NCBI RefSeq assembly: GCF_002591915.1
Contig: NZ_NIHB01000001.1
Span: 1,044,337 to 1,108,336 of the forward strand
Direction of reading: 5' to 3'
DNA length: 64,000 nucleotides
Source of the DNA: Marinicella litoralis
GTDB lineage: Bacteria; Pseudomonadota; Gammaproteobacteria; Xanthomonadales; Marinicellaceae
Shown piece after piece: positions 6,255 through 56,804 of this stretch. Numbering within the stretch: position 1 is the stretch's first letter; each line of letters begins with the position of its first letter. The position numbers and the translations under genes are program-made. Under the pieces are notes generated by a model. It did not search any database. It was not told the DNA's origin and worked only from the letters and a program-made list of their open reading frames with translations.

Positions 6255-8213
6255 TCACTGGGCTGCTTCAAAATCATTGGCAAAAATGAGGTCAAAAGAC
6301 AAGGTGTTTGAGAATATGATGACCCCAGCTTCGTTGTCAGCGATGGCCAAGACTTGATCGCTGACCGTCACTTTTTTTGCCAATCCTGGGGTGTTTAAAC
6401 CAGATAAGTAAACCGGTTGGGTTGGGTCAGTTACATCGTACATCATCAATCCATACAATGCACCAGCGGCCAGATAAGCCACATTGTTGTGAACTTTTAC
6501 ACCTTCCATGGTAAAGATGAAGTCAATGTCTGCCACTTCATGCGCCATGCTGGGAATGCTGGTGTCCCAAATACGTAAACCATCGGTGTTATTGGCAATG
6601 TACAGGTAGTTGTCGACCCAATCAATACCAAAAACAGGTCTGTTCAAAGTGTGGGTAAACAAGGTTTGTGGGTTGGCTTTGTCTGAAAAATCAACCAAAT
6701 AAAAGCTCAATGCACCCGCGATGGCCAACAAATCACCGCTTTTAGCCACTTGACGTGCGGCGCCTTCCGACCATTGGGCCAGTAAATTAATTGAACCATC
6801 CTGGCTGATTTCCAACCACTTTAAGCCCTGGCTAGACACATCGCCACCGACGATCACTTCATTGTCATCAACCACCAGAATTTCATGGTTGCTGGAATAG
6901 CCTAACAAGTCATAAGGTGGTAATTCGACGGGTTGGGCTGGATTTGAAATGTCTGTTATCATTAATTGATTTGATGTGGTTCCCAGTACCAAGTCACCCA
7001 GTATGACCCCAGAAGTGAATGAGGATTCAGGATATAACCAAGCCATCAGGTTTGGTCTGGATGGGTTACCCAAGCTGAGCAAGGCCAAGCCGCTGTTGTC
7101 TGTGGCTGCTAACACGTAGCGGTCATCGCTGAAAATATGGATCGAGTTTTGTAACAAAGGCAATGCTTGAACCAAACTGGCTGAACCTTCTGTGAGGGCA
7201 GTTGATAGGTCATGACTTTCCAAATCATGATTGACAGTGAATGCACTGGGTGTAATCACATGAGCCACTTGATCGTCCAAGGTAAACCTGAATGCACCGG
7301 TGGTGGTTTCGTATAACAACATGGGGTTGTTGGGGTCTTGGATGTCAAATACTTTCAGCCCATCATTCAATTCAGCAACCACCAGGTGATCGGTACCCAT
7401 GGGCCTGACACCTCGAACATAATTGGTTTGGCTGTTGTCCATATCAAGCAAGGTATTCACAGCGATGACTGGTGAAGTTTGTAATTCAATCACGTTCAAG
7501 CCATCCAAGCCCTTGTCCAAATAAGCTTTGTCACCAGCTATGTGGATGCCGGTTAACCGGCTGAAATTACTGTCACGAAACACCAAAGACATCTGATTGA
7601 TGTCGGTGATATCCACCACCGACAAACCATCAAAACCATCGGCAATCCATGCATGGTCTGCATAGATTTCTACATCCCAAACGGAATTGATTCCCAGTTC
7701 AATGTAATCACCAACAATCTGAATGTTCAGTGGGTCACTGACATCCAAGGCAAACAACCCTTTGGGTGTTACCGTGGTGATTAAGGTGTTGTTGTCTTTG
7801 AAGGCCATGCCATAAGGGGCTCCACCTTGGTATTGTGCTGGTAATGTGCTGGCAGCGAAATCAAATCGACCCAACAGGTAAATGGATTCTGGATCGGCTA
7901 TATTCAATAAACTGACCCATTGTTGTTTGTCTGAGGCGGCCAATTTTGTTCCATCAGGACTGATGGTTAAATGCTCGATGGGACTGAGCAATCTAAAAGA
8001 GGAGTGAATGGCCGGTTGGTGATTGGCGTTGACAATTGCTACATGCAGTACGCCGCCTTCGGCAAAAAACAAATAATTATTGCCATTGGCTTGGTGCGAT
8101 ATCAACGTGTTGGCCGGTCCATAAGGCCAGTGACCTGCATAGTCAAAGTCAGCCAATTGGGCTGCGGCCCAATGGCACAGGATCAGTAAAATTACGCCAG
8201 TCATTGTTCTCAT
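6255..8213 (-). CDS. Exported LVIVD-repeat beta-propeller protein with C-terminal IFxxxFE motif
   Basis: The 652-residue product starts with a signal peptide (MRTMTGVILLILCHWAAAQ). Repeats of the type VDISDPxNxxxVG occur throughout (ALDVSDPLNIQIVGDY, VVDITDINQMSLVF, VFDIQDPNNPMLLYE, MITDISNPAQPVELP, MYDVTDPTQPVYLSG), which is the LVIVD repeat of extracellular beta-propellers. The C-terminus is SFDLIFANDFEAAQ, a variant of the tag seen on several exported proteins in this window. The start at 8213 has AGAGG 7 bases upstream and is preferred over an upstream in-frame start at 8252. Probably surface or periplasmic; ligand unknown. Confidence 0.8.
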   Translation of the reverse strand: MRTMTGVILLILCHWAAAQLADFDYAGHWPYGPANTLISHQANGNNYLFFAEGGVLHVAIVNANHQPAIHSSFRLLSPIEHLTISPDGTKLAASDKQQWVSLLNIADPESIYLLGRFDFAASTLPAQYQGGAPYGMAFKDNNTLITTVTPKGLFALDVSDPLNIQIVGDYIELGINSVWDVEIYADHAWIADGFDGLSVVDITDINQMSLVFRDSNFSRLTGIHIAGDKAYLDKGLDGLNVIELQTSPVIAVNTLLDMDNSQTNYVRGVRPMGTDHLVVAELNDGLKVFDIQDPNNPMLLYETTTGAFRFTLDDQVAHVITPSAFTVNHDLESHDLSTALTEGSASLVQALPLLQNSIHIFSDDRYVLAATDNSGLALLSLGNPSRPNLMAWLYPESSFTSGVILGDLVLGTTSNQLMITDISNPAQPVELPPYDLLGYSSNHEILVVDDNEVIVGGDVSSQGLKWLEISQDGSINLLAQWSEGAARQVAKSGDLLAIAGALSFYLVDFSDKANPQTLFTHTLNRPVFGIDWVDNYLYIANNTDGLRIWDTSIPSMAHEVADIDFIFTMEGVKVHNNVAYLAAGALYGLMMYDVTDPTQPVYLSGLNTPGLAKKVTVSDQVLAIADNEAGVIIFSNTLSFDLIFANDFEAAQ

Positions 8214-8374
8214 CACAAACCTCTGCACAATTGAAAATAAGCAGGTTAGCAAGTGTGGTATTTTTATACTTGAAATTAAGCTGAAAAATTCATGAAATAA
8301 ATATAAATGCCCACGGCAGACTCAATATTCACCTTAATTCAGTCAAGTCAGGGGAGGTGGTTATGCCAAAGGGG

Positions 8375-9007
8375 TTAGACCTTACGCAGGGTGAGGTTGA
8401 TGCGGTGTGCCCCCAGGTTTGGGTGGGGAATGCTGTGTTTGGTTTTCACACCATGGTAAATTAATCGAGCTGAACGACCCCATACCATCACATCACCATC
8501 ATACAATTCAATTTCCAGTGGTTTGTTGTTGCGTGCATCGCCGTAAATTTGAAATCGTGCACTCATGCCCAAAGACACAGAGACAATGGGTTGGCTCAAG
8601 TCAGGTTCATTTTTATCTTGGTGTGCGGTGAGTACTCGGCCTTGTTTGTAGTGGTTGATCAGACAGGCGTTGGGTTGAAAATTCTTGAAATTGGCATGTC
8701 TGGCAGCGGTCAATGCCAGTTGTTTGAATGGCTGTGGCATGGCGGGCCATGGCCGCTTGGAGCTGGGATCTTTGGCAGCATAACGATAGCCTGTGGGTTC
8801 ACTGATCCAGCCTAAATCGCCACAATTGGTCATTGAGATATTGAGTTTTTTACCGCCTGGGGTGTGCATGAACCGAAAGGGGGCTTGTGCAGTGACGGCT
8901 TTGACCTCATCAATCAATGACTCATATGAAGTGAAATTCCTGAGTAAATAAATGTCTTTTTGAATTTCTTCAATCAGTTGGCTGTTGGGTGAAAATAAAT
9001 CATTCAT
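8375..9007 (-). CDS. alkB: Alkylated DNA repair dioxygenase AlkB
   Basis: The 210-residue protein matches E. coli AlkB (216 residues) in length and motif spacing. The Fe(II) ligands are H129, D131 (TAHQDKNEPD) and H185 (IYHGVK); the 2-oxoglutarate-binding arginines are R202 and R208 (HRINLTLRKV). NHY, the expected substrate/cofactor segment, is at 118-120. It oxidatively removes 1-methyladenine and 3-methylcytosine lesions from DNA. It is not in an obvious ada operon here; the neighbour 3' on the same strand is the exported LVIVD protein, about 160 bases away. Confidence 0.93.
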   Translation of the reverse strand: MNDLFSPNSQLIEEIQKDIYLLRNFTSYESLIDEVKAVTAQAPFRFMHTPGGKKLNISMTNCGDLGWISEPTGYRYAAKDPSSKRPWPAMPQPFKQLALTAARHANFKNFQPNACLINHYKQGRVLTAHQDKNEPDLSQPIVSVSLGMSARFQIYGDARNNKPLEIELYDGDVMVWGRSARLIYHGVKTKHSIPHPNLGAHRINLTLRKV

Positions 9008-10302: not shown

Positions 10303-10374
10303 CGCCATCAATCAACGATATGACAGGCCCATTTAATGTGATGATTTTTTCAAAACAAAACCAAGGGTGACACA

Positions 10375-18603: not shown

Positions 18604-21546
18604 ATGAAAAAGTCAGTGGTTGTTTGGTCGCTTTTGGTTTTACTGCAGGGTCTGCAAGAATTAAAAGCACAGGTTGATTATGACATCGTTTACGTCAGAC
18701 AAGTCAGGTTTGGCGACATGGTCAACACCACATGGCCGGAAATTTTTCATCCGGGGCGGATGGATGCAGGTGCTGATTTGATGCTGTTACACCCTGATGG
18801 TTCGGAAGAAATTTTAGTGGATTGTGAAACTTGTGGCGTCACCGATCCGGTGGTGTCATTCGATGCACAATGGGTCTATTACAGCTATTTTTATGATTTA
18901 AGCCAAGGCAGTCTGAATACCCAACGCGGTGATTTGCCGCACCAAGGTGCTGACATTTATCGCATTCATTTAAATTCACGGGTGATTGAACAACTGACAT
19001 TTGGCGAATTCACACCAAATACTGGCGCAGGTCATTGGGATGAAAGCAACCCCTTGAATCCCAGTTCCGAATTCAATCGATTGGGCTATGGCATTTTAAA
19101 TTTAGGACCGATGCCCTTACCCGGCGGTCGTTTGGCTTTTACCAGTAATCGCAATGGATTTGTTCCGACCAAAGGTTTTACCAACCCCACCATGCAATTG
19201 TATGTCATGGATGTTGATGGTTCCAATGTGGAAGCCATTGCACCGATGACCATTGGCAGTGCGCTGCACCCCACAGTCTTGAACGACGGGCGTTTGATGT
19301 TCTCCAGCTATGAAGCCCAGGGAATTCGTGATCGTCGACTGTGGGGTATTTGGACCATAGAACCAGACGGGCGTAAATGGGAACCGTTGGTCAGTGCCAT
19401 GACTTCACCCAATGCTTTTCACTTCATGACCCAAAATTCAGCCGGTGAAGTGATCGTGGAACAATACTACAACTTGAACAACAATGGCTTTGGTGCCTTG
19501 TTTAATTTGCCTTTGGATGTGCCACAAGGACAAGCCAAGTTTGGCAGCCCATTTCCAAACCTTAACCCACAGATAGATCAAACTGTCAGTCAGAATATTG
19601 GTGTACAACCTTTTCAAATGCCTTTCACTCCATGGGGTTATGAGGCGCTTACACCGATGACCCACCCAGGTGACAGCGCCGCGCCGGTTGGCAATAACAA
19701 TGTGGATCGGGTGGGAAAATTCACCCAACCTTCGGCGGCACCTGACAATGATTTGTTGGTGGTTTGGACGCCAGGGCCGGCCAATGATTTGAACCGACCC
19801 ACCACCATTCCTTATTACGATGGTGGCTTGTATGTGATCAATGACAGTGCTCAAGTTTGGCAACCAGAAGATTTGTTGTTGCTAAAAAATGACCCAGATT
19901 ATAACGAAGCTTGGCCGCGTGCGGTGGTCACTTGGCAAGCCATTCATGGCAACCCGGAACCGGCCACTCGAGATTGGTTGCCGAATGATGGCACTGAACA
20001 CCCAGCACTTGAAGCGGGCACGCCTTATGGCTTGGTGGGAACCAGCAGCTTGTATAAACGCGATACCTTTCCGGGCCGGGGCCGAGCTGAATTTGATGGT
20101 TTGGATCCATTCAACACTTCACAAAATCGAACCAGCAGTAATTGGGATTGGCAAGGGGCAGATGCCGGCAAATACCAGGACAGTGACATCTGGGCGATTC
20201 GAATTCTGGCAATGGAACCGAATACTGATCGCCGTTATGGACCGAATGCGGCCCATTATGGAACCGCCACAGATTACTATAATTTTGCCAATGAGCGCCT
20301 GCGCATCATGGGAGAAATACCGGTCAGAAAATCCAATCCAGACAGCAGCCCAGTGATGGATAATGACGGCAATCCTGACACCAGTTTTTTGGTTAAGATC
20401 CCTGCCGACACCCCGTTTACATTCCAAACCATTGATCGCAAAGGCATGGTTTTGAACATGTCACAAACATGGCACCAAGTTCGTCCAGGTGAAATGCGGG
20501 CTGATTGTGGTGGCTGTCATGCTCACAGCCAACAGTCTTTGGATTTTGCCACCACTGCAGCTAATTTACCCAATTACAGCATCCAAGATTTATCCACGGT
20601 CACACCCATGGTTACTTTGAATGAAAGCGGAGAAAATGAGGTGGAAAACGTGCCACAAAACATGGTCGATGTGGAGTTTTTCCAGGACATCAGACCGGTA
20701 CTCCAAAACCACTGTATCAGTTGTCACAATGACAGCCAACTGGCTGGTCAATTGGACTTGTCAGACCTTACATTGGTGGAGGATTTACCGGGTGATTATC
20801 GACGTTTGGCGAAAGATGAATCGGCTGAGTTTGGCCACCCACCGGTGATTCAAAATGGCGTCTGGCGCCAAACCAACGCCAGCCGTTATGTTCGAAAGTT
20901 CCAAAGTCGTCGCAGTTTGTTGGTATGGAAAATTTTTGGTGAACGCTTGGATGGCTGGGACAATGCAGACCACCCCACAGCATCAGTTCCAGGCGATGCC
21001 AACACCTTGCCCAATGGCGCCAATCCAGATCAGGCCGATTTGGATTTCATTGCCAGCACGGCACATCCCGCTGGCGGCATGACGGCTTTAAGTATGGCTG
21101 AGAAAATGGCAGTGGCACGTTGGATTGATTTGGGCGCGCCAATTGATTTGTCGGTGATCAGAGGCAACCCTGGTTTGGGGTGGTTTTTAGATGACCTAAA
21201 ACCCACCTTGACCATCAGTTCACCACGACTGAATGACAACCCAGAGCCAATCAACCAAATCATTCTGGGTATCGCCGATGCCAACTCAGGGATCGACTTT
21301 TCATCTTTATCCATCACCGCCGATTTTATAGTCAATGGACGACCGGCTGACACTGAATTGAGTGACTTGGCCAGTCAAACCAGCGCAGGGGTGTATCAAA
21401 TCAACCTCGATCAAGCGTTGCCAGCTGACCAGACAGAACGGCACCTCAGGGCCGAAGTGGCAGACAACCAAGGCAACATCAAACGGGTGGATGTCAGGTT
21501 TTACACCACCAACCCAGACATCATTTTTTCCGATGGATTTGATTGA
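18604..21546 (+). CDS. Exported di-haem propeller protein (hydrazine synthase alpha-like) with C-terminal IFSDGFD
   Basis: The 980-residue product has a signal peptide (MKKSVVVWSLLVLLQGLQELKAQ). The first half carries TolB/PD40-like strands (GADIYRIHLNSRVIEQLTFG, LYVMDVDGSNVEAI), as in the middle domain of hydrazine synthase alpha-type proteins. Two CxxCH haem c sites follow: ADCGGCHAH near residue 635 and NHCISCHND near 704, the second resembling the planctomycete-type cytochrome c domain. It ends in PDIIFSDGFD, the recurrent tag. GAGG precedes the ATG. A periplasmic or surface electron-transfer or oxidoreductase role is likely; real hydrazine synthesis is not implied. Confidence 0.75.
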   Translation: MKKSVVVWSLLVLLQGLQELKAQVDYDIVYVRQVRFGDMVNTTWPEIFHPGRMDAGADLMLLHPDGSEEILVDCETCGVTDPVVSFDAQWVYYSYFYDLSQGSLNTQRGDLPHQGADIYRIHLNSRVIEQLTFGEFTPNTGAGHWDESNPLNPSSEFNRLGYGILNLGPMPLPGGRLAFTSNRNGFVPTKGFTNPTMQLYVMDVDGSNVEAIAPMTIGSALHPTVLNDGRLMFSSYEAQGIRDRRLWGIWTIEPDGRKWEPLVSAMTSPNAFHFMTQNSAGEVIVEQYYNLNNNGFGALFNLPLDVPQGQAKFGSPFPNLNPQIDQTVSQNIGVQPFQMPFTPWGYEALTPMTHPGDSAAPVGNNNVDRVGKFTQPSAAPDNDLLVVWTPGPANDLNRPTTIPYYDGGLYVINDSAQVWQPEDLLLLKNDPDYNEAWPRAVVTWQAIHGNPEPATRDWLPNDGTEHPALEAGTPYGLVGTSSLYKRDTFPGRGRAEFDGLDPFNTSQNRTSSNWDWQGADAGKYQDSDIWAIRILAMEPNTDRRYGPNAAHYGTATDYYNFANERLRIMGEIPVRKSNPDSSPVMDNDGNPDTSFLVKIPADTPFTFQTIDRKGMVLNMSQTWHQVRPGEMRADCGGCHAHSQQSLDFATTAANLPNYSIQDLSTVTPMVTLNESGENEVENVPQNMVDVEFFQDIRPVLQNHCISCHNDSQLAGQLDLSDLTLVEDLPGDYRRLAKDESAEFGHPPVIQNGVWRQTNASRYVRKFQSRRSLLVWKIFGERLDGWDNADHPTASVPGDANTLPNGANPDQADLDFIASTAHPAGGMTALSMAEKMAVARWIDLGAPIDLSVIRGNPGLGWFLDDLKPTLTISSPRLNDNPEPINQIILGIADANSGIDFSSLSITADFIVNGRPADTELSDLASQTSAGVYQINLDQALPADQTERHLRAEVADNQGNIKRVDVRFYTTNPDIIFSDGFD

Positions 21547-26888: not shown

Positions 26889-28862
26889 ATGTTTTTTTTA
26901 ATGCTTACTTTGGTTTCTGGTTTTGTTCAAGGGTCACCGAACTGTGATGTGATTTATGTCCATGGATTTGAGTCAGGTGGGCCAACCACAGAAGTCTGTG
27001 AAGCCCCAATCATTGCTGACATGGGTATGCACACAGTGAGCCATGGTGATACCTTTGTATACCAGCCACAGATTTCAGGCGAAGTGGTGCTTTGCCGAAA
27101 AGACATGGGTCATGATGAGGTCAATGTTGACTCAGTTTCTGGATTAATCACTTGGGATACTTCCGAATTGTTGTTTGGCCGTGGGTTTTACATTCGCATT
27201 AAATGCAGCAATTACCATGGTTCTGCCTGGGCATCGATGGTGGTTCATGTTGATAAATCTGGCAGCAGTCAATTGCGGGTGGCAGGTGAAAATGGAGTGT
27301 CACCCTTTATTGCTGTGGCTGCCAGTGAAATGCAAGGTGGCGATACTGTGGTGTTTCCAGATGGACTTTATCCAGTTTCGGTCAGCCAGGATGAAAGTTT
27401 TGAGAACGCGCTCAAGACCACCACGGATGTACCCAGTAATGGCAGTGCTGATCAATTCAGTACCATCATGGCAGCATCACCCGGTGGTGTATTGATTTCA
27501 GGAGCGGCACATGATGGTATTCCAAAACAAAAAAACGCCATACAAATGGCTTCCAGTAACTATGTCGCATTGGTAGGATTTAAAATCGCTGATGTACTCA
27601 GAGAATCTTTCACTTCATCAAATGGCAACCATTTATTGGTCGAGTTCATCGGTACTGCCGGAGCTGGTACCAACAACTTACCTTGTTCAAATTTTATTGA
27701 AGCCAGAGAAGGTTGGTGTTCAAAGGCTGGTATGCGAGCCAACAATGGAACCCCTTTGTTTCAAGCTAATTACGATTGGGGCCATAACCGCTATGGCATC
27801 ATGACTCGATCTACCACTGCCTCCATTACCCGTCGTTCATTTGTACGCTTAGATGAGCATCGCGGTGATCAACCTTATGGTGGATTCAGTGATTATTGCG
27901 ATCAGGCCCATTTAAGCCAAGACAATGTGGTGTTTGATTCCTTGGCAATTGCGGCACCACATTATAAAAATTATGCGGGCTTGTCGGCATTTCCTGCCAC
28001 TGGTTGTGAAAATATGGTCTCTGAATTAAAAGTTAAAGGCTTAATGGCAGTCAATAATAAGTTGTCATTGTCTTTGATGGATTCACAGGCTGGCGTGGAT
28101 AACGAATGGGTAAACATCGTATCATATGATTCTGAAGCCACTTGTACACCACAAGGAAATCGTTGTGCGGCACCATTATTACAGTCTGATAAAATTTTGA
28201 ATGTGCGTGAATCATTCTTCGGTCAGGCCAGGGCATTTAATAACAACATCAGCGGTCCACCGGCCTTTGGAGAAGAAATTATCTTACAGGAGAATGTCAC
28301 CTTGTTTGATGTATTTGATGAAACTGATCAAGGGTCACCACCGCGTTATTTACCTGAATCCTTGTTGTATTTCAGCGGTAAATCAGACACCTTTCATGGA
28401 GACCCTGGTTTTCAAGAGATGACCACAGTCAGGCGTTGGCCCATTTCTGGTGAGGACATCATGGCTGCCAGTATGCAATCATATTTCAACTCGGCAGCAT
28501 TTAAAGTTGGTGGAGGAACTGTGGCAGTAGATGGCAATCGTGGCGCTGTGGCAGAAGGTGAAACCATGTCAGAATACTTTTGGGCCTATATGGATCCTTT
28601 GATCCCCCCATTGGTGGTCAGGGTCAAGGATCTGGGAGCTACGCATCGGATAGCATGGGAACACTTAAGCAGTCATCGACGGACATCAGTCATTGGTTGG
28701 AAAGTGGTTTGTACATCCAGTGGCAACACCACTTTGGTCATCCTTGATGAAAATCAACTCAGTTATGAACACCCTGCAGGTTCATGTACGTCCTATGCTG
28801 TCAAAACTATGTACTTCGCAGGTGAAAGTGGGATTGCTTACAGTGAGGTACCAGTCCAATGA
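26889..28862 (+). CDS. Exported beta-helix-like protein with N-terminal VIYVHGFE motif
   Basis: The 657-residue product has a signal peptide (MFFLMLTLVSGFVQGS). Directly after it comes PNCDVIYVHGFESGG, the tag that other proteins here carry at the C-terminus. An Ig-like stretch follows (GDTFVYQPQISGEVVLC). Repeated beta strands then run from about residue 135 onward (GGDTVVFPDGLYPVSV, NYVALVGFKIADVL, NHLLVEFIG), as in right-handed beta-helix enzymes such as polysaccharide lyases. Catalytic residues cannot be assigned. The stop overlaps the next start (ATGA), so the pair is translationally coupled. Lying behind the hybrid sensor suggests glycan-linked control. Confidence 0.6.
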   Translation: MFFLMLTLVSGFVQGSPNCDVIYVHGFESGGPTTEVCEAPIIADMGMHTVSHGDTFVYQPQISGEVVLCRKDMGHDEVNVDSVSGLITWDTSELLFGRGFYIRIKCSNYHGSAWASMVVHVDKSGSSQLRVAGENGVSPFIAVAASEMQGGDTVVFPDGLYPVSVSQDESFENALKTTTDVPSNGSADQFSTIMAASPGGVLISGAAHDGIPKQKNAIQMASSNYVALVGFKIADVLRESFTSSNGNHLLVEFIGTAGAGTNNLPCSNFIEAREGWCSKAGMRANNGTPLFQANYDWGHNRYGIMTRSTTASITRRSFVRLDEHRGDQPYGGFSDYCDQAHLSQDNVVFDSLAIAAPHYKNYAGLSAFPATGCENMVSELKVKGLMAVNNKLSLSLMDSQAGVDNEWVNIVSYDSEATCTPQGNRCAAPLLQSDKILNVRESFFGQARAFNNNISGPPAFGEEIILQENVTLFDVFDETDQGSPPRYLPESLLYFSGKSDTFHGDPGFQEMTTVRRWPISGEDIMAASMQSYFNSAAFKVGGGTVAVDGNRGAVAEGETMSEYFWAYMDPLIPPLVVRVKDLGATHRIAWEHLSSHRRTSVIGWKVVCTSSGNTTLVILDENQLSYEHPAGSCTSYAVKTMYFAGESGIAYSEVPVQ

Positions 28863-29761
28863 AACCTGTATTAATTTTGTTGGTTTTGTTGGGCGCCCCA
28901 ATACACCATTCCGCAACGAATGCCTCGCCATTTCCGATAGAAAACTATCAAAATCCCAATGACATGGTGGCTTGGTCATCAGTGGCTAATTTGTCGGGCA
29001 TCACCCATAACTGGGTGGCAGATGAGTATGTTACCGTACACCAAAACCAATACTGTCGATTTGATGCCCAACTGAATGAATTGGGCTGCGGTTCATTGGC
29101 TTGTGGGGATTGTGAAGACATCAGTTTCCTAGGAACCAATGGCGAATTCTATGAATATGCCTTGGTTGAGGAGGGTGGCGCAGAAGGTTCGGTGGCCATA
29201 GTGCAATCACCCATCAGCACCCACAACCTCAGGCTTGATCAAGTTGATGTGCAGTGGTTGACCTATGCCAATACTGCAGGTGGTGATGCCGGTGAAGGCG
29301 TGGCTTATGATGCCTTGAACCAAATATTTTATGTTTGTATAGAAGACCCACAAATGCAAGTCCTCAGTTTTCAAAGACCCACGGACTCTAGTGATGCCAC
29401 TTTCTCAGATGGCTCTTTGGTGGTGACTGAAGCCTTGTCATTTGCTCAATTGAGCGGCTTATTGGGTGGAGGGGCGGATTTGTCCAGTTGTTACTATGAT
29501 CAGCTGACGGGTCGATTGTTGTTGCTGTCGCACATCGGGCATAAGCTCAGTGACATTGATCTATCCGGAGTTTTACATGGCCAAATTGAGTTGCCTCAGG
29601 CCCAAGTGGAGGGTTTTACGTTCAACGCAGACTTTACGCAATTGCTGGTGGTGGCTGAGCCCAATTTACGACAAATATACTACGCTTCTGATGTGATTTT
29701 CAGTGATGGATTTGAGTCAGTTTTTGTTTCAAATAACGAGATTATACGCACCTTATGGTAA
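28859..29761 (+). CDS. Exported SdiA-regulated (YjiK-like) propeller protein with IFSDGFE motif
   Basis: The 300-residue product has a signal peptide (MKPVLILLVLLGAPIHHSATNA). The core matches SdiA-regulated/YjiK proteins: LSGITHNWVADEYVTV at the start, GVAYDALNQIFYVCIE in the middle, DLSSCYYDQLTGRLLLLSH and QVEGFTFNADFTQLLVVAEP near the end. The tag DVIFSDGFES occurs 14 residues before the C-terminus and is followed by a polar and then hydrophobic end. It overlaps the upstream beta-helix gene by four bases. A periplasmic or surface phytase/lactonase-like propeller is the usual fold; the ligand is unknown. Confidence 0.75.
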   Translation: MKPVLILLVLLGAPIHHSATNASPFPIENYQNPNDMVAWSSVANLSGITHNWVADEYVTVHQNQYCRFDAQLNELGCGSLACGDCEDISFLGTNGEFYEYALVEEGGAEGSVAIVQSPISTHNLRLDQVDVQWLTYANTAGGDAGEGVAYDALNQIFYVCIEDPQMQVLSFQRPTDSSDATFSDGSLVVTEALSFAQLSGLLGGGADLSSCYYDQLTGRLLLLSHIGHKLSDIDLSGVLHGQIELPQAQVEGFTFNADFTQLLVVAEPNLRQIYYASDVIFSDGFESVFVSNNEIIRTLW

Positions 29762-35165: not shown

Positions 35166-35822
35166 TCAGTTATCGATTAATTCGGTAAACAGCACGCCAC
35201 AACCACTGGCATCGGTACAAACGCTGTCGGTGTAAGGTGGCACAGTAGAGTGAATGATATTCAGGTAATACAGCGTGTTCTTTTCCAAGATACATTTTAC
35301 AACCAAATCAGTTGGTGATGGATTGTCCTTGGTGGTCCAGCGCAGAACGGGGGCGGTGGATCCACCGGCATATTGGCCACCAACCACACAGCGACCGCGC
35401 CCGACATCAGGTGAGCTGACATTGAAATCACCTGGGCATTTGCTGAGTGATACGGTATAAGAGGCTGGGGTGTAATTGGCTGTCGGTTGTTCAAATGAAT
35501 TTTTCCGTAGATACAGTGTAAGCGGAGTGGTAACAGGGAAAGTGGCGTATTTATTGATCGGTATGGCAAACGAAAATGACGATGAGGTGGAGTCGCCAAA
35601 AGGGTTGCCAGAAAAAGCCTCGTAAGACATGGTTTGTGGCGTTGTTCCTACAGGTGGTTGGTGCAGGGTGCAATCTGTCTCGGGTCCGATCAAAGCACCG
35701 GAAACCAATGAAGCATTCTCAGCATCTACATTGATCTTTAATTCAGCCGTTTCATCCAAGTCGTAGAAATATTGGGCAGCCATAGAGTCAAAAGCAAACA
35801 GCAAAAGAAGCAATTGTTTCAT
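35166..35822 (-). CDS. Hypothetical exported protein (second of a coupled pair)
   Basis: The 218-residue product has a short signal peptide (MKQLLLLLFAFDSMAAQ). The mature part is beta-rich with about seven cysteines (DCTLHQP; SKCPGD; GRCVVGG; VKCILEK; SVCTDASGCG), suggesting several disulfides. I know no family. The start overlaps the stop of the upstream gene by four bases (35819-35822), so the two are translationally coupled and probably act together. No IFxDGFE tag. Confidence 0.6.
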   Translation of the reverse strand: MKQLLLLLFAFDSMAAQYFYDLDETAELKINVDAENASLVSGALIGPETDCTLHQPPVGTTPQTMSYEAFSGNPFGDSTSSSFSFAIPINKYATFPVTTPLTLYLRKNSFEQPTANYTPASYTVSLSKCPGDFNVSSPDVGRGRCVVGGQYAGGSTAPVLRWTTKDNPSPTDLVVKCILEKNTLYYLNIIHSTVPPYTDSVCTDASGCGVLFTELIDN

Positions 35823-36358
35823 TCGAATCCTCCGAGAAAAATGATTTCTCTTGGGTCAATAAACTCAACCCCATTGTCACAGACGATGTCGCCGTTGATG
35901 GAGTCGTATTTAAAATAAAGGTTGTTGCCGTCGGTAAACACCAGTGCATCTGAATCTGCTTTGAATTCAATAGACAGGCCGTTCAGTAAGATTCGAGGTG
36001 GGTCAGTTGGAATGATTCCGCTCGCTGAGGTACAGTTGTTGAGGTTACTGGTCTCAGTAAACAGGTGTAAATCCGAATAAAAGTTGACTTCAACGGTATC
36101 ACTCAAAGGGTAGCGATAGCCATCAATGACAATGAAGTGGTTGTTGCTTGTGCAGCCGGCCGTGTTGATGATAATGACATCGTCGGCCGATCCGTTGTTG
36201 ATCACAGCGGCTTGGAATTGGCAGGTGCTGTGTGTGTATGAAATCGGAAACAACAAATCAGAATACAAGACAGGTGAGCCATCATTGATTACATTGAATG
36301 TCCACAGTGCTTGTGAAGACATCGGTGTTAATAAAAAGATCAGTGTTAACAATTTCAT
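35819..36358 (-). CDS. Hypothetical exported protein ending in IIFLGGFE
   Basis: The 179-residue product has a signal peptide (MKLLTLIFLLTPMSSQA). The mature part is beta-rich with four cysteines (STCQFQA; TAGCTSN; NNCTSAS; DIVCDNG). It ends exactly in DPREIIFLGGFE, a variant of the C-terminal tag on other exported proteins here. First gene of a coupled two-gene unit. Function unknown; the tag suggests the same sorting or anchoring route. Confidence 0.65.
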   Translation of the reverse strand: MKLLTLIFLLTPMSSQALWTFNVINDGSPVLYSDLLFPISYTHSTCQFQAAVINNGSADDVIIINTAGCTSNNHFIVIDGYRYPLSDTVEVNFYSDLHLFTETSNLNNCTSASGIIPTDPPRILLNGLSIEFKADSDALVFTDGNNLYFKYDSINGDIVCDNGVEFIDPREIIFLGGFE

Positions 36359-42228: not shown

Positions 42229-44625
42229 TCAGTTGTCAAAACCATGAACAAAAATGGTGTCAACAAGCAGTGCAGTACAGAGGCTGCCAGACGCTTTGAC
42301 CTTGATGTCATCGATGTGCCAGCCATCGCGGGTGACTGAGCTGTCGGTAGTCAGTCGAAACCGAAGTTTTAATTCGTTAGAGCCATTGGGTGGGTTCAAG
42401 GGTTCAATTTCTTGTTGCCATTGGTCTTGATTGTTACAGGTTGAGATTTCTTGCCAGCTGCCACCATCAAACTGTACTTCGAAATGACCATAATCATAAC
42501 CGGCTTCGGTGTCACAATGACTCATGTAGCTGACTTCAAGTGACTGGGCATCAGTGATTGAAATGGCAGGTGTGGTTAAGGACAGGTTGAGGTTGTCGCT
42601 GTAGTTACCACCAGGGCTGTCACTCCAGGCATTGTTGGGGCTGACACTCAATTCATTGCTGATGGCCCAAGGGTTTTGGTTGTTCCAATTGGGTGAGCCA
42701 CTTTCCATGTCATCGCTGAAAATATCACAAAAAGGATGCAATTGGATGTCTTGTACCAACTGTGTGCCTGCAACCAGGTTGAGGTTGCTGAGGGTCTGAC
42801 TGGAGTAATTGGCTGCTGATACCACCAGGTCGGCTTGGCCCGGTTGTACCCACTGTGAGTAGGAACCATCGCTGACAGTGAGGGCATTGGATTGGTTGAT
42901 TTGTAACAAACCGCCAGGGATGGCATTGCCGGTCAAAGCATCAGTCACTGTGCCGGTTAAATGAGCCACTTCATTTTCAAGCACCACATCGACAAATTTG
43001 GCAAAGGTAGCACCGGCTCGCAGGCCATCGGAAGCATGAACATAGACCAAGTTCTTGCCAGTTGTTAAGCCAGTTGTACTGATCGTGCTGTTAAAGTCTT
43101 CTTGGACTTCATCGTAGTTACCGTCAGTGGCAGCCAAAGCGGTGCCGGAGGTGGCTTGGGTGGGTAATTGATTGATGTACGCGGTCACTGATTGGATCGA
43201 TTCGGTGCTCTGTGGACCATTGGCCTGGCTGTAACGATCATCATTGGCGGTGCCTGAAACCTGGATGTTGCTGTCTGCAAGAACCACATTTGGTATCAAT
43301 AATAAGTTTTCAATGTCAGGCCCCAAGGGTTGTTTATAAGGTGCTTGCGCCACCCTGGCCAAATACATCAAGGCATCCAGGTTGTCAGGTAAAACCGTGC
43401 TTTCAAAGGAATTACAGTCTTGAAAAAACGAAGTGCCTAACTCAAACACCAATGACGCAATACCCAATTCGCCATAGGTGGTGTCTATGGAGGCGCCGTT
43501 GACTGGATACAAATCGCTGGCCGACTCCGGTAAATAGTCATTGAACCAAGCGGTTCTTTTACTTAAGGCTTGGAATTGATTGTCATTGGGTGAAAGACTG
43601 CCGGTAAAACCCCATGGATAAAGTACCAATTGACTGTAGCTGTGTATGTCAACAAAAACACCACTGGTGTCATCAGCCACTGGGTCATTGATGCCAGGGC
43701 CTCGGTGGTCATCGAAAATCTCACGGATATAGGCCATTTGTGCCATCAGCTCAGGTTCTGATTCAGCTGAACTGCCGCCATAGGTGGGCCCGCATTGATC
43801 ATTTCCGGTAGCCCATTCGAATTGATAATTTCGATTCAAGTCAGCGCCGCGATCATTGCTGCTTGGTGAGCAATAATCCTGATTGGTGTTCTTGCGCCAC
43901 AACAAGCCGGTTTCAGCTTGTTTTCTGCCATCGGGGTTGGTTTGTAATGAGAAGTGGATTTCATGGTGATCTAATATCCAGGTGACATCGGCATTGAGGC
44001 CGTATTGAGACAACAAATATTCGGCAAATCGGGTGTTCAATTCAGCCGTTGCGTACTCTCTGGCATGGATGGCAGAGGCCAAAAATAAAATGGGCTTGTC
44101 GCCTATGGTGCTTTGATTGGTGAGTTTGAGTATTCGAATGTCATGGCCAGCCAGGCCGTTAACGGTTTTTTCCCAACTGTCTCCAATGTCCAATACTTCG
44201 GCCAAATTGGGGTGATTCAACTCCATTTGATCCATTCTTTGGAAGGTTTCTTCCACCGTTGAATAACAAGCAAAACCAGGAATACCTGTACCCATTTTAT
44301 TGCTAAGGTGGCTGTTTGCTTTGATGTTCTGTTGGTCCAAGGCGTGCTGCGCCATCAACTTGTGGTCCAGGTACATCGGCAAGTCTAAGTCATGAAGTTT
44401 TTGCAAGGTGCTGGGGTCTTGGATGTATACAATGGCAAATTGTTGTTGTTGATTAACTGCCCAAACATCACTCAATGCGTCTAATGATTGTAATTGTTTT
44501 TGGTGTTGAAAATGAATCCTGGCGATTGAAGGGTAATCAATGCTTTGGTTTTTATTTAATGGTTGTGTGTCTATGGCCCATGAAAATTGGCACCAAAGCA
44601 GGGATAAAAGAAAAAAAGGTTTCAT
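42229..44625 (-). CDS. Exported M14 zinc carboxypeptidase ending in IFVHGFDN
   Basis: The 798-residue product has a signal peptide (MKPFFLLSLLWCQFSWA). An M14 peptidase domain covers about 120-440. Zinc ligands are in ASAIHAREYATAEL (H and E near 187-190) and in FVDIHSYSQLVLYPWG; SLQTNPDGRKQAETG and GADLNRNYQFEW bind substrate, and VFELGTSF holds the catalytic Glu. A carboxypeptidase-regulatory repeat (GTVTDALTGNAIPGG) and a C-terminal adhesion-like domain (DDMESGSPNWNNQNPW) follow. It ends in VDTIFVHGFDN, the tag. Extracellular peptide trimming is likely. Confidence 0.9.
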   Translation of the reverse strand: MKPFFLLSLLWCQFSWAIDTQPLNKNQSIDYPSIARIHFQHQKQLQSLDALSDVWAVNQQQQFAIVYIQDPSTLQKLHDLDLPMYLDHKLMAQHALDQQNIKANSHLSNKMGTGIPGFACYSTVEETFQRMDQMELNHPNLAEVLDIGDSWEKTVNGLAGHDIRILKLTNQSTIGDKPILFLASAIHAREYATAELNTRFAEYLLSQYGLNADVTWILDHHEIHFSLQTNPDGRKQAETGLLWRKNTNQDYCSPSSNDRGADLNRNYQFEWATGNDQCGPTYGGSSAESEPELMAQMAYIREIFDDHRGPGINDPVADDTSGVFVDIHSYSQLVLYPWGFTGSLSPNDNQFQALSKRTAWFNDYLPESASDLYPVNGASIDTTYGELGIASLVFELGTSFFQDCNSFESTVLPDNLDALMYLARVAQAPYKQPLGPDIENLLLIPNVVLADSNIQVSGTANDDRYSQANGPQSTESIQSVTAYINQLPTQATSGTALAATDGNYDEVQEDFNSTISTTGLTTGKNLVYVHASDGLRAGATFAKFVDVVLENEVAHLTGTVTDALTGNAIPGGLLQINQSNALTVSDGSYSQWVQPGQADLVVSAANYSSQTLSNLNLVAGTQLVQDIQLHPFCDIFSDDMESGSPNWNNQNPWAISNELSVSPNNAWSDSPGGNYSDNLNLSLTTPAISITDAQSLEVSYMSHCDTEAGYDYGHFEVQFDGGSWQEISTCNNQDQWQQEIEPLNPPNGSNELKLRFRLTTDSSVTRDGWHIDDIKVKASGSLCTALLVDTIFVHGFDN

Positions 44626-52429: not shown

Positions 52430-54022
52430 TCAAGTACCCAACGGTTCGGATAAATTTTGTTTTAAGCTTTGCAAATGTTCTATGGCTTGACCAACGGTTT
52501 CAATGTCATCCAGTAAATTGGGGTTGAATGGACTTTTTTGATTCATTTGTGAGATGTAATGCGCTCCCACCAGAATGGATTTTTGTAAATCATTCAACGG
52601 ATCGTCGGCATAATCTTTATCACTGGTTTGAGGTATACATGGTTCATCAATGACTGGAAAATTGGTTCGTTTTGTATCCGAAAATACCGAACCAAAAGAA
52701 GGCGCCTGCTTGTCTCTGTCCGTCAACCCTTCCAGGTCCCATTTTTCACACATGGTTTTGATAAAAGAGCAATGTTCATATGGGTCATTGATGATGGTGT
52801 TTTCAGGCAAGTAAGCGGAAACCATCACCATGGGTACCCTGATGCCAAGGCGATCGAATCTGAACCCTTTTTGTCCAGGTGCCTGACTCAATGCTGTAGG
52901 CAGCTGGGGCGGAGCGATGTGGTCAAAGCACCCACCGTGCTCATCATATGTAATGATTAATAAAGTGTTGTCTTTGTATTGACTGGACATCAATGAGGTG
53001 TAGACATCCCAAATTAACTTTTCACCCAATAGCACTGAGCCCTCTCGGGTCGGTCCATCATCATCAATCAGGCCCACATCGACTGAAGAAGGGTGCTGGT
53101 CATTGTGTTGTCCCAGGAATTTGGGTTCAATGAATGCGTATTGCGGTAACTGGCCTGTTTTCAGGTCATTTTTAAAAGCAGTGAGTTTATCACCAGCGCG
53201 GATCACATTTTTGTGTTTAAAATTGTTGACCAATTCAGTCAGTGAAAATGAGTCTTCGATATAGACGGCATGGGAAATTTTATTTGCTTTCATGCGGTCA
53301 AACAGGGTTTTTTGTTTCCATACATTTTTCGCCCAAGAAGCCATTGCTTTGACGTCCCTCCAAGCACCACCTGAGTCCAATGGATTGACCACTTTGCCTG
53401 CTGAAGTGCCGGCATGCCAAAAAGACCGGTTACACCATGTTTGACTCGGTACTGAACAAAACCAATGGTCAAAAACAGCAAATTCTTTGGCCAAGGTGCT
53501 CAATACATTGACCTGACAAGGCTTGAAGCATTGCATGATTGCACTGTACATATCATAACCTGGGTCGTTGTAGTGCTTGCCCTTCTTGCTGTTCAAGGCA
53601 TTGAGTGTATTGACATAATCTTTGATAAAGCCATCCATTGGCGGTGGGTTGGGTACTGAGCTCGGCATGTTGTAGGGCGCAACCATGTTGGCAGCCGAAA
53701 CACGGCAATTATCCGGGTTGATGTAGTTATAGATTTGGCTGTTGACATGTTGATAAACCTCACCTGGGTCAGGGAATGGTTGGTGATAATTTGTGGCTTT
53801 AAAGGGTTTTATTGATGGGTGTTGGGTAAAATCTTTGACCCATGAGGGTACGGGCAAGGCGCCATCAAATTGATTTAAACCTGCGAATTTTTTACCAGCA
53901 GGCACTTCCTCGTCGGTGTATAAGTAACCCAGCAGATTATCGAATGAACGATTTTCCAACATCAACACGACCACATGATCAAAGGTTGCCAATCCTTTTT
54001 TATCAGCAGATACTTTTTGCAT
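52430..54022 (-). CDS. Phospholipase C / phosphoesterase family protein (PF04185 type)
   Basis: The 530-residue protein has the alkaline-phosphatase-like PLC fold: DHVVVLMLENRSFDNLLGYL at the N-terminus, and ITYDEHGGCFDHIAPP carrying metal-binding Asp/His near the centre. IPMV-like and SFIKTMCEKWDLE blocks follow. GGGGGA lies directly before the ATG, a strong ribosome site. No signal peptide is apparent, unlike most secreted PLCs, so it may be cytoplasmic or exported by another route. Convergent with the kinase gene, about 40 bases apart. Confidence 0.85.
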   Translation of the reverse strand: MQKVSADKKGLATFDHVVVLMLENRSFDNLLGYLYTDEEVPAGKKFAGLNQFDGALPVPSWVKDFTQHPSIKPFKATNYHQPFPDPGEVYQHVNSQIYNYINPDNCRVSAANMVAPYNMPSSVPNPPPMDGFIKDYVNTLNALNSKKGKHYNDPGYDMYSAIMQCFKPCQVNVLSTLAKEFAVFDHWFCSVPSQTWCNRSFWHAGTSAGKVVNPLDSGGAWRDVKAMASWAKNVWKQKTLFDRMKANKISHAVYIEDSFSLTELVNNFKHKNVIRAGDKLTAFKNDLKTGQLPQYAFIEPKFLGQHNDQHPSSVDVGLIDDDGPTREGSVLLGEKLIWDVYTSLMSSQYKDNTLLIITYDEHGGCFDHIAPPQLPTALSQAPGQKGFRFDRLGIRVPMVMVSAYLPENTIINDPYEHCSFIKTMCEKWDLEGLTDRDKQAPSFGSVFSDTKRTNFPVIDEPCIPQTSDKDYADDPLNDLQKSILVGAHYISQMNQKSPFNPNLLDDIETVGQAIEHLQSLKQNLSEPLGT

Positions 54023-54394
54023 AATTCCCCCTTAAACGAATGTTTCAGCAAATACCAGTGAAATGGAGTGATGACTGCTTTGCTGATTAATTTTTTAATT
54101 GTTGTGTTTTTTATTTATTATACATTAATCACAGATAATATGTGCATCACAGAATAATTCACTCAATGGGCTCGTAAACTCATGGGTCTTGCCTCATCAA
54201 ACACTGGTTTTTTAGAATTTATAATCACAACGGTGAAAAGTATGGACCCTTGACTGGTTTGATTATTCAACAGTGTGGATTGGTTTTCACCATGAGGGTT
54301 TTATTCAATGTAAAAACAAATTGCGTTTCTGTTGTCCTGTGTTTCATTGATGTGTCGTGAAGTTCAATAAGTCAAACTTATTGGAATCATTAAA
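54023..54394. other. Intergenic region between phosphoesterase and fibre genes
   Basis: The 372 bases separate two divergent genes and hold no further gene I can support. They are A/T rich near 54090-54160. A perfect inverted repeat lies at 54365-54383 next to the fibre gene start. No convincing -35/-10 pair was found. Confidence 0.4.
54365..54383. promoter_or_regulatory. Perfect inverted repeat upstream of the fibre gene
   Basis: CAATAAGT and ACTTATTG flank the loop CAA. The second arm runs straight into GGAATC, the only ribosome-site-like sequence, 9-11 bases before the ATG at 54395. It could be an operator or a hairpin that hides the ribosome site. Confidence 0.4.
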
Positions 54395-56503
54395 ATGAAA
54401 CAAAAACTGAATATTTTTATCGCGGCGGTCTTAATCATCATCAGCACTTTTGGGAATGTAAAAGCAGCCACTCAACAAGGTTCCTATTTTACCTACCAAG
54501 GTGAATTGATGGCCAACAGCGTGGCAGCCAACGGTGCTTATGACATCACGGTAGAATTGTATGATGCAATGACTGGCGGCTTGATGGTCAGCAGTCAAGC
54601 ATTGACATCCGTTGCCGTTGTTGATGGTATATTTTCAATTCAAGTAGATGTTGGAGACGTGCCATTTATGGGCAATGAAAACTGGATTGAGTTAAAAGTT
54701 CGACCCGCCAGTACTGGGACGTTTACTACATTAACACCTCGTCAGTTGATTACCAATTCGCCTTACGCCATCCAATCACAGTTCGTTGGCGAAGACGGTG
54801 TTGACGCCGCGTCAATCAAAGACAACAGTATTCTGAACAGTCACTTAAGCAATGGTATTGTTGATACCGCAGAGTTAATTGATTTGGCGGTTACCAACGC
54901 AAAAATTGCCAGCGGTGCGATCACCACAGGAAAAATAGCATTGGGTGCGGTGCGAACGGATGAGATTTTGAACGGCACCATCGTGGCAGCAGATGTTGAT
55001 TCAAATTCAATCCAGCAACGGGTCAGTGCTGCATGCAACGCAGGAAGCAGCATCCGACAAATCAACAGTGATGGATCGGTCGCTTGTGAAACCGATGACA
55101 CCGGTGGCAGCAGTGGATGGGGTCTCAGCGGTAATGCAGGAACCAACCCGGCAACCCAATTTCTGGGCACCTCGGATGATGCAGACTTTGTGATGAAAGT
55201 GGATGGGTCGCAAGTTGCTTTTTTTGATGCTTCCAGCCGAAATATTATTTTTGGCACAGACACCAACACCATTGGATTTGAAGGCAAAGACTCAAGTATA
55301 GCGGGTGGCAGTGGTAATACCATCAATGTAAACTCGTTGAGTAGCCACATGACCATCGGTGGTGGAAGTGATAACGCAATCACCACAGCCGCAGCAGGCG
55401 GCAACTCATCCAATGTAACCATAGCTGGAGGTAGGGATAATGTAGCAGCCAGAGAAGCCGCGACCATTGGTGGTGGTAAAAGAAACCAAGCCATACAATT
55501 ATTTTCAACGGTGTCAGGTGGCCTCTCCAACAAAGCCACTGCCGAAGCATCCACAGTGCCAGGAGGCGAAAGCAATACAGCGGGCGGAAAACACAGTTTT
55601 GCTGCAGGTAGAACGGCAGTGGTCAGAGATGCGGCTGCTGTTGGCGGCGGCGACACCGATGGTGATGAAGGCACATTTATCTGGTCATCAAGAGACTCTT
55701 ACTTTACCTCTACTGGGCCTGAACAATTTTTGATTCAAGCCGACGGCGGTGTCGGTATTGGTACCAATGAACCAAAATCACCCATTCATTTGGTGGGTTC
55801 TGGCACATCAAACAGTTCGATCCCCGGGTCAGATGAAGTGATGTTGCTGTTAGAGTCAAATTCTGCCAATGGTGATGTGGCCCTCGTACTGGATAAAAAC
55901 TCAGAAAATTCTCATGCAAGCTTGGTATTTTCAGAAAATGGTCAAATCGCCTATGACATGCGGGAAACAGCCGCTTCGGGTATTGAGTTCAATAGTTATG
56001 ACAGTTCAAGTATAGCCACTTTGATCATGCGATTGATAGCCACCACGGGCGTCCCCAATCGAGTTGATATCAATGGCAATCTTGAGCCGCAAAGCGGTAA
56101 CACTTTCAATTTTGGTAGTGCCTTATTTCGTTGGAAAAACATCTATACAGTTAACCCTGTCGATGTCAGTTCTGATAAACGATTGAAGTCGCAGATTGAA
56201 AATTTGGATTATGGTTTGGCTGAAGTTTTGGCCATGCGCCCCGTCAGTTATTACTGGAAAAATGGAGACACTGAACAGTTGCACCTGGGATTGATTGCAC
56301 AGGAAGTAGAAAACATAGTGCCTGAAATCGTCAGTAAGACCGCAGATCAAGCTGCCATGCGATCCATGCGCTATACAGAGCTGGTGCCAGTGTTGATTAA
56401 AGCCACCCAAGAACAGCAAATCATCATTGACCAACAAAACCATAAAATTGAAAAATTACAGGCTTTGGTAGAAGGTCTGATTTCAGTTCAAAACCAAAAA
56501 TAG
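54395..56503 (+). CDS. Exported fibre protein with YadA-head-like repeats and S74 chaperone domain
   Basis: The 702-residue product has a signal peptide (MKQKLNIFIAAVLIIISTFG, to KA). The middle is a repeated left-handed beta-roll (AGGSGNTINV, IGGGSDNAIT, IAGGRDNVAA, IGGGKRNQAI, VSGGLSNKAT, VPGGESNTAG, AAGRTAVV), as in trimeric autotransporter heads. The C-terminus, from about residue 588, is an intramolecular chaperone of the Peptidase_S74 type (SSDKRLKSQIENLDYGLA, GLIAQEVENIVPEIV). The Ser-Asp-Lys-Arg-Leu-Lys site is where self-cleavage would occur. A trimeric fibre at the cell surface is likely. It is followed in 10 bases by the tagged small gene. Confidence 0.85.
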   Translation: MKQKLNIFIAAVLIIISTFGNVKAATQQGSYFTYQGELMANSVAANGAYDITVELYDAMTGGLMVSSQALTSVAVVDGIFSIQVDVGDVPFMGNENWIELKVRPASTGTFTTLTPRQLITNSPYAIQSQFVGEDGVDAASIKDNSILNSHLSNGIVDTAELIDLAVTNAKIASGAITTGKIALGAVRTDEILNGTIVAADVDSNSIQQRVSAACNAGSSIRQINSDGSVACETDDTGGSSGWGLSGNAGTNPATQFLGTSDDADFVMKVDGSQVAFFDASSRNIIFGTDTNTIGFEGKDSSIAGGSGNTINVNSLSSHMTIGGGSDNAITTAAAGGNSSNVTIAGGRDNVAAREAATIGGGKRNQAIQLFSTVSGGLSNKATAEASTVPGGESNTAGGKHSFAAGRTAVVRDAAAVGGGDTDGDEGTFIWSSRDSYFTSTGPEQFLIQADGGVGIGTNEPKSPIHLVGSGTSNSSIPGSDEVMLLLESNSANGDVALVLDKNSENSHASLVFSENGQIAYDMRETAASGIEFNSYDSSSIATLIMRLIATTGVPNRVDINGNLEPQSGNTFNFGSALFRWKNIYTVNPVDVSSDKRLKSQIENLDYGLAEVLAMRPVSYYWKNGDTEQLHLGLIAQEVENIVPEIVSKTADQAAMRSMRYTELVPVLIKATQEQQIIIDQQNHKIEKLQALVEGLISVQNQK

Positions 56504-56513
56504 GAGCATTCGC

Positions 56514-56804
56514 ATGATTAATTTTAAGGTGTTGCTGCTCAGTCTGTTGATGCTTTCTGTGGCTTTTCATGGCAAGGCAAAAGATTCAAACTCAGAAACT
56601 TCCCAGGGAGCGATTCAGTATGCCATCAAGAAACACACCATAGATGCTGGGGGCGGTCAATCAGCAGCTGGTCAGTTTAAGCTCACTGGTACCATGGGCC
56701 AATTTGATGGCAACCACCTTGCCTCAGGTGGTTTCTATGTCTTTAAAGGTGGGTTTCATAGTAAACACAATAATGACTTGATTTTCCAACATGGCTTTGA
56801 CTAA
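56514..56804 (+). CDS. Small exported protein ending in LIFQHGFD
   Basis: The 96-residue product has a signal peptide (MINFKVLLLSLLMLSVAFHGKA). The short mature part contains IDAGGGQSAAGQFKLTGTMG and LASGGFYVFKGGFH, a motif pair seen in many longer bacterial cell-surface proteins (GGGxSxGGxYxLSGTIGQ type). It ends exactly in NNDLIFQHGFD, the recurrent tag. It is 10 bases after the fibre gene with GGAG upstream, so the two are one operon. A small surface partner of the fibre is likely. Confidence 0.7.
   Translation: MINFKVLLLSLLMLSVAFHGKAKDSNSETSQGAIQYAIKKHTIDAGGGQSAAGQFKLTGTMGQFDGNHLASGGFYVFKGGFHSKHNNDLIFQHGFD

Follow-up and report, generated by a model that had tools for sequence, protein, structure and literature searches.

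A nine-residue terminal tag on unrelated exported proteins of Marinicella litoralis whose abundance follows a canonical type II secretion system

Sorting tags on exported bacterial proteins are already known. PEP-CTERM (read by exosortase) and LPXTG (read by sortase) each occur where their machine does, on dozens of carriers per genome, with a transmembrane segment and a charged tail after the motif. The C-terminal domain that directs diverse cargo to the type IX secretion system (T9SS) is a folded unit of about 80 residues found in Bacteroidota, and substrates of the type I secretion system (T1SS) bear a C-terminal signal without an N-terminal signal peptide. GlyGly-CTERM/rhombosortase and MYXO-CTERM/myxosortase tags consist of three parts, a motif, a transmembrane helix and a basic tail, and are cleaved by intramembrane proteases; excerpts of the respective reports (PMC3237569 and PMC11980579) connect each of them with a type II secretion system (T2SS), the former reporting that no T2SS subclass was found for GlyGly-CTERM. 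T2SS substrates enter the periplasm by Sec or Tat, according to an excerpt of PMC12369372. As far as the excerpted parts of PMC7949064 and PMC12369372 go, substrate recognition is attributed to GspC (PDZ) and GspD, which contact substrate loops or immunoglobulin (Ig) folds, is thought to be structural, and no common linear signal is known for this cargo. How the T2SS chooses its cargo is thus a long-standing question. Here we describe a nine-residue tag with the consensus D-[LVI]-I-F-x-[DNHS]-G-F-[DE], carried by seven exported proteins in a 64,000-nucleotide stretch of the Marinicella litoralis genome (contig NZ_NIHB01000001.1, positions 1,044,337 to 1,108,336; in our numbering G000:C1:1044337-1108336, the window), whose abundance follows one T2SS subclass.

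Like GlyGly-CTERM and MYXO-CTERM, this tag is short, mostly C-terminal and shared by many unrelated exported proteins of overlapping cargo families, and it resembles PEP-CTERM and LPXTG in having dozens of carriers per genome. It differs from these systems in that the motif is followed by neither a helix or transmembrane segment nor a basic or charged tail, the N-terminus is tolerated, no processing enzyme has been identified and one T2SS subclass is followed. With its nine residues and its occurrence in Gammaproteobacteria it is equally distinct from the T9SS domain, and its carriers, unlike T1SS substrates, mostly have a signal peptide (38/51 by a strict rule). The T2SS signals worked out for single substrates (loop 3 of PelI with OutC/OutD; the Ig fold of VesB with the PDZ domain of EpsC) are structural, substrate-specific and unshared, whereas the present tag is a common linear motif on dozens of unrelated proteins; what they have in common is the stage after Sec or Tat, and the canonical GspC of these genomes (GspC-A) is predicted by its model to share the PDZ fold with the GspC of the single-substrate systems. 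The first-pass annotation, which had pointed out the seven motifs from the window's sequence, knew of no published name for them. Literature searches on motif strings and CTERM families indeed found no description of the tag, it lies outside every NCBIfam match on these seven proteins, and the 25 of 29 NCBIfam families shown for 52 carriers include no tag model, be it of PEP-CTERM, LPXTG or any other type.

A six-frame scan recovered all seven motifs at the genes and positions first noted. Five are near-C-terminal, with 0 (three proteins), 1 or 3 residues before the stop, one lies 14 residues in and one directly follows the signal peptide. Two further loose-pattern matches brought the window's total to nine and were discarded as non-tags, one at 52742 in an antisense frame and one at 29979 inside an enoyl-CoA-hydratase-like protein. 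The initial observation turned out to be right and understated, as the motif is found genome-wide and not only in the window. Across the own genome (3.35 Mb, 21 contigs), the exact-end pattern matched 27 sites versus 0 for the reversed pattern, and the pattern without stop 78 versus 8; the motif count exceeds chance. Among 77 sites read in frame, 54 are C-terminal by a cut of our own choosing (at most 15 residues from the C-terminal end, in ORFs of 90 aa or more), of which 48 lie within 5 residues of the end and the other six within 10-15. The tag sits exactly at the stop in 26 of these copies and is trailed by residues in 28. Neither a transmembrane helix nor a basic tail follows the motif in the C-terminal copies among these in-frame sites, and the residues trailing 199 tags, a set partly chosen by exact-end patterns, include 2 K/R among 103. 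Conservation extends to positions that the search did not impose (D at -2 in 43/54 C-terminal sites, L/V/I at -1 in 42/54). Motif position 1 is I in 54/54, although V and M were also permitted, and position 4 is D/N/H/S in 48/54 C-terminal sites versus 7/23 of the others. Internal sites in long ORFs without a signal-peptide call amount to only four (window 29979 and loci L067, L088 and L105), of which three have V or M as their first motif residue, so the motif is not equally frequent in cytoplasmic proteins or at internal positions. Tandem copies end a single C-terminus in L058, L071 and L076, and tags placed directly after a signal peptide occur in L041/L069, L214 (with SDF), L289, genome G097 (L303/L345) and window protein 26889-28862. 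Besides, tag-like motifs end a 58-aa ORF at G000:C12:378496 (L089) and lie 27 residues from the end of an 88-aa ORF at G000:C1:719523 (L068); either may be a decayed carrier or a chance match.

The carriers are exported and otherwise unrelated. A strict rule-based call assigned a signal peptide to 38/51 tag proteins versus 59/204 untagged genes from the same loci (Fisher p = 4e-9), and on visual inspection 11 of the 13 negatives resemble Sec or Tat signals, L078:7558-9042 and L119 being uncertain. This rule replaced a lenient one that accepted 49/54 tag sites but also 120/199 neighbours. Together with the C-terminal share (54/77), these counts bear out the enrichment that the annotation had suggested looking for. 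Twin-arginine-like starts are found on DUF1501-type carriers (L078, L106) and in other genomes (L129, L293, L299). Since Sec and Tat carriers are both tagged, the tag would act after translocation. A set of 52 carriers (50 of the 51 signal-tested ones, L119 being left out, plus L258:1053-2945 and the window's propeller protein, with 26889-28862 excluded) matches 46 Pfam families, some of whose models overlap; the 25 families shown include subtilases, M14, M28 and reprolysin-type proteases, FG-GAP, BNR repeats, GSDH, endonuclease I, LVIVD and DUF1501. NCBIfam matches with E up to 0.001, shown without per-carrier cut-offs, comprise myxosortase- and rhombosortase-dependent M36 types (six carriers each), choice-of-anchor Q, B and J, CSLREA, ExeM/NucH nuclease, LapA aminopeptidase and, for one carrier, a T9SS-type M6 family. 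Some of these cargo types bear other sorting tags or use a T2SS elsewhere, and given the NCBIfam matches the tag seems to occupy the slot that GlyGly-CTERM, MYXO-CTERM, LPXTG or T9SS signals fill in homologous families.

Among the samples scanned, the tag is rich in one order only. The exact-end pattern is present in 64/151 genomes of the order, as opposed to 13/227 outside it in a sample of the class, with one site each, not read in frame, and 4 reversed-pattern sites; this slight excess over the control leaves room for a few true tags there. The matches listed (80 of 116 stretches) place the tag in Marinicella, Dokdonella, Pseudofulvimonas, Lysobacterales metagenome-assembled genomes and under some other labels, and a record labelled Bacillota is also among the matches listed in a scan of other classes and phyla. 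Within the order, tag-poor genomes sit beside tag-rich ones; G019, for instance, is a tag-poor member of the family to which the window's genome belongs. The terminal position, the export signals, the unrelated domains and the richness in one order support the first-pass proposal of a sorting, anchoring or export signal, as judged from sequence.

Tag abundance follows the canonical T2SS. A GspC-A profile built from 17 canonical GspC sequences and applied at a threshold of at least 120 bits (lowest score kept 129.8, in G089; G061 at 88.7 counted as absent) divided the 151 genomes into 83 GspC-A-positive and 68 GspC-A-negative ones. Counted as sites without stop minus reversed-pattern sites, median net tag sites were 30 and 4, respectively (Mann-Whitney p = 1.8e-14). 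At least 25 net sites were reached by 44/83 versus 1/68 genomes, at least 20 by 51/83 versus 4/68, and at least two exact-end sites by 50/83 versus 1/68. The canonical system is hence present in 44/45 tag-rich genomes (at least 25 net sites), the exception, G113, being a 460-contig assembly with 21 exact-end tags and two GspD matches that both score below the cut-off. In a within-family permutation over 64 genera, 0/20000 shuffles reached the observed difference, while FliF, the patchy flagellar gene used as a control, gave 17568/20000; it associates with clades too, negatively. Because shuffling was confined to families, simple between-family confounding is excluded. Three families (f1, f2, f12) agree with the association: the single GspC-A-positive genome of f2 is its single tag-rich one, the four GspC-A-positive genera of f12 are the four richest in tags, and in f1 the 100% complete G019 has no canonical GspC, GspD or GspG and no exact-end tag.

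In the own genome, two GspD and two GspG score over their cut-offs, and T2SSE, T2SSF and T2SSC are matched by Pfam. Its canonical system is split over two loci, G000:C12:722000-741500 (L258) and G000:C16:109000-128500 (L320). The gspCDEF locus (by Pfam T2SSC plus PDZ, secretin, T2SSE and T2SSF) is often syntenic across genomes, in the order rho, rhlE, gspC, D, E, F, ftsE, ftsX, response regulator, ung, rpoH. The canonical GspG lies apart, followed in the own genome by lookalikes of H, I, J and K, and in G117 by lookalikes of H to N, GspG being the one tested by model; labels beyond the model-tested genes rest on gene order and resemblance, and GspL and GspM of the canonical system were not located in the own genome. 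A GspG of at least 164 bits besides a lower-scoring one was found in 15/15 GspC-A-positive genomes tested versus 0/8 negative ones (best 126.9). Most of these genomes also carry a second, separate T2SS, an EFGHIJKLMND cluster of which GspD and GspG were tested by model and which we take to be Xps-type. A GspD search (TIGR02517) in 69 genomes of the order returned two type II secretins in most tag-rich genomes; none over the cut-off was seen in 2/69, G019 (no match) and G001 (one below cut-off). In the GspC model, a membrane helix is joined by a beta domain and a PDZ domain. Among solved structures the PDZ domain of Vibrio EpsC matches the latter best, and the fold matches of the model further include solved PDZ structures of DegP, DegQ and CtpA. 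In L258, a tagged protein gene lies on each side of gspCDEF, on the same strand and within 19.5 kb. The downstream, same-strand L258:1053-2981 is a tagged protein without a Pfam match, and G064 has a homologue at the same place (L282).

Our preferred reading, which we consider somewhat better than even, is that the tag serves as a linear, post-translocation sorting signal read by the canonical T2SS of the order, through the GspC PDZ domain and/or GspD. The carriers have Sec or Tat signals and the own genome encodes a T2SS, as expected of T2SS substrates, and periplasmic recognition as T2SS cargo is suggested by these two export routes, by the tag's occurrence at either terminus without a membrane anchor and by the T2SS association. 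A carrier would thus cross the inner membrane by Sec or Tat and expose the tag in the periplasm as a flexible extension past its folded domain, in most cases at the C-terminal end but in some at the N-terminus of the mature protein. A single machine, with gspCDEF in one locus and pseudopilin genes in another and distinct from the Xps-type system, would then read it, most likely on the GspC PDZ domain and/or the periplasmic N-domains of GspD, and deliver the cargo across the outer membrane to the surface or the medium. The D/N-G in mid-motif would go well with a tight beta-turn that links two short strands, and as residues trail the tag in 28/54 copies, recognition as a strand or loop is favoured over carboxylate binding. 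That the tag is a portable linear nine-residue secretion signal for dozens of unrelated T2SS substrates, working via GspC-PDZ/GspD and usable from either end, is a stronger statement, which we put forward tentatively and with less than even confidence.

On the other hand, several observations weigh against the canonical T2SS as the reader. The trailing residues speak against a free carboxylate being bound in the classical PDZ manner. Family f8 does not show the association; in it, G097 has no canonical GspC, no high-scoring GspG and, as secretins, a single type II GspD, which its score and length place in the other class, plus a PilQ-like protein; 7 C-terminal tags and 1 post-signal-peptide tag among its 23 sites are nonetheless real. 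Likewise, 2 real tags were found in G063, in 6 loci seen of 22 sites, again without a canonical GspC. The claim that genomes without the canonical T2SS have no tags therefore fails. Still, 15/23 sites of G097 are not tags, so the reversed control understates the background and net counts are inflated there, which works against the association. Besides G097, the GspC-A-negative genomes with at least 20 net sites are G113, G048 (24 net sites, 90% complete) and G059 (20 net sites, 77% complete), all three drafts with GspC-A-positive congeners in which class-A GspD was not found either. Conversely, GspC is present with few sites in f7, f9 (genus g12), G082 and G127; where sites of such genomes were seen, G006 had two tagged proteins and G009 and G037 none. 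The first-pass annotation had also suggested looking for a co-occurring dedicated processing or secretion gene. The canonical T2SS emerged as a strong candidate for such a machine, but the clusters printed (199 loci, 1153 ORFs clustered) contained no dedicated-looking enzyme beside the tag genes, the recurring neighbours being carriers and generic genes. Finally, co-occurrence is not causation, and the informative contrasts come from four families and one unrelated control gene. The canonical T2SS is not a strict requirement for the tag to occur, nor does it suffice; it is the abundance of tags that follows it.

Among the alternatives, the one we take most seriously, while regarding it as unlikely, holds that the tag marks proteins for surface anchoring or processing and is recognised by another factor, such as an outer-membrane-side sorting protein or a transpeptidase-like enzyme, and that the T2SS correlates as the clients' exit route, as with GlyGly-CTERM and MYXO-CTERM. 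The cargo types are the same as those of proteins anchored elsewhere, real tags persist in G097 and G063, and in the excerpted PMC11980579 the MYXO-CTERM anchor tag is separate from T2SS transport. Against such a factor speak the missing transmembrane helix and basic tail, with 48/54 C-terminal copies ending within 5 residues, the lack of a dedicated-looking neighbour gene in the clusters printed, and the way in which tag number tracks one T2SS subclass, whereas PMC3237569 reports that none was found for GlyGly-CTERM. Rhombosortase in particular was rejected as the tag reader: it passes its cut-off in 12/151 genomes of the order, all GspC-A-negative, and its best match in the own genome scores 46.5 bits versus a cut-off of 84. 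As a separate observation, rhombosortase and canonical GspC never occur together (12 of 151 genomes), which might reflect mutual exclusion of two sorting solutions. The Xps-type T2SS, or either T2SS, could also read the tag, the canonical system then correlating by added capacity. The tags of G097 and G063, which have only the other-class GspD and a PilQ-like secretin, fit this idea, as does the lack of exact-end tags in G019 and G001, the two genomes without type II GspD over the cut-off. However, G113 has its 21 exact-end tags without GspD over the cut-off in its draft assembly, and genomes of f2 and f12 have the Xps-type system without many tags: it was seen in the six f2 genomes whose cluster was read, while the 23 GspC-A-negative genomes of f2 have at most 6 net sites, and 9/9 GspC-A-negative f12 genomes tested have type II GspD over the cut-off, while those of f12 have at most 16. 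These genomes render the Xps-type system less likely as the sole explanation, and we judge this alternative improbable overall.

The tag might not concern sorting at all but act as a C-terminal cap or as a degradation or quality-control signal for tail-specific or DegS/DegP-type PDZ proteases. It is terminal, hydrophobic-acidic and borne by proteins that cross the periplasm, and the fold matches of the GspC model to DegP, DegQ and CtpA illustrate that PDZ proteases with a similar domain exist in general. Such proteases are nearly universal, whereas the tag abounds in one order and is all but missing from close relatives; some tags are N-terminal after the signal peptide, and the tag associates with a secretion machine, all of which makes this explanation quite improbable. 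A functionless mobile C-terminal cassette, spread by shared descent and coinciding with the T2SS by phylogeny, is the least credible account and in our view very improbable. Clade structure in the order is strong, and the flagellar control is clade-associated as well, negatively, but the motif persists behind a linker that varies, tandem copies occur at single C-termini, and the within-family permutation leaves no room for simple between-family confounding.

If the preferred reading, recognition by the canonical T2SS, holds true, the tag would allow T2SS cargo to be predicted from sequence and would provide both a simple means of solving the complex of a signal with GspC/GspD and a portable label for secretion. 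Should the T2SS link fail, a terminal sorting tag free of a transmembrane segment, on about 50 proteins of one genome, would still need a reader.

The domains attached to the seven window tags differ, as had been noted, ranging from LVIVD, HZS-alpha and SdiA-regulated-like to M14, with three proteins lacking a Pfam match over the cut-off (Table 1). For the M14 carboxypeptidase, the tag is kept in 6 aligned homologues (two partial), while the linker before it varies in length. Its structure model is of low confidence (mean pLDDT 59, pTM 0.43), and we used only the low confidence of the tail (pLDDT <50 at residues 786-798), which lies past the last strand (769-780) and suggests that the tag is disordered there.

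Table 1. Tags in the window and the proteins that carry them (positions within the window).
Feature	Positions	Strand	Placement or basis
Tag DLIFANDFE	6267..6293	-	3 residues before stop of 6255-8252
Tag DIIFSDGFD	21517..21543	+	exact C-terminus of 18604-21546
Tag DVIYVHGFE	26946..26972	+	directly after signal peptide of 26889-28862 (N-terminal placement)
Tag DVIFSDGFE	29690..29716	+	14 residues before stop of 28859-29761
Tag EIIFLGGFE	35822..35848	-	exact C-terminus of 35819-36358
Tag DTIFVHGFD	42235..42261	-	1 residue before stop of 42229-44625
Tag DLIFQHGFD	56775..56801	+	exact C-terminus of 56514-56804
Carrier: exported LVIVD propeller, choice-of-anchor-B-like (that model below cut-off)	6255..8252	-	Pfam, NCBIfam
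Carrier: exported HZS-alpha-domain protein, CxxCH motifs visible	18604..21546	+	Pfam; cytochrome models below cut-off
Carrier: tag at mature N-terminus, no Pfam match over cut-off	26889..28862	+	six-frame scan, Pfam
Carrier: exported SdiA-regulated-like protein	28859..29761	+	Pfam
Carrier: small exported protein, no Pfam match over cut-off	35819..36358	-	Pfam
Carrier: exported M14 carboxypeptidase with CarboxypepD_reg and InhA-like MAM domains	42229..44625	-	Pfam
Carrier: 96-aa exported protein, no Pfam match over cut-off	56514..56804	+	Pfam

Some further genes deserve brief mention. ORF clustering placed tagged relatives of 56514-56804 in L142 and L212. In L142, an untagged exported protein adjoins the tagged relative, and its start resembles that of window protein 54395-56503 by eye; clustering did not join the two. 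The ending CGVLFTELIDN, common to window protein 35166-35822 (- strand) and L259:12429-13685, was considered as a second tag and rejected, because the two proteins are 68.6% identical over 169 aa and the shared LFTELIDN is explained by homology. Both have signal-peptide-like starts, one lying beside a tag gene and the other beside an Xps-type T2SS cluster. Near the start of the window, 304-1056 and 1348-2382 (- strand) are two similar genes, presumably REP-associated (Y1-type) transposases by their resemblance.

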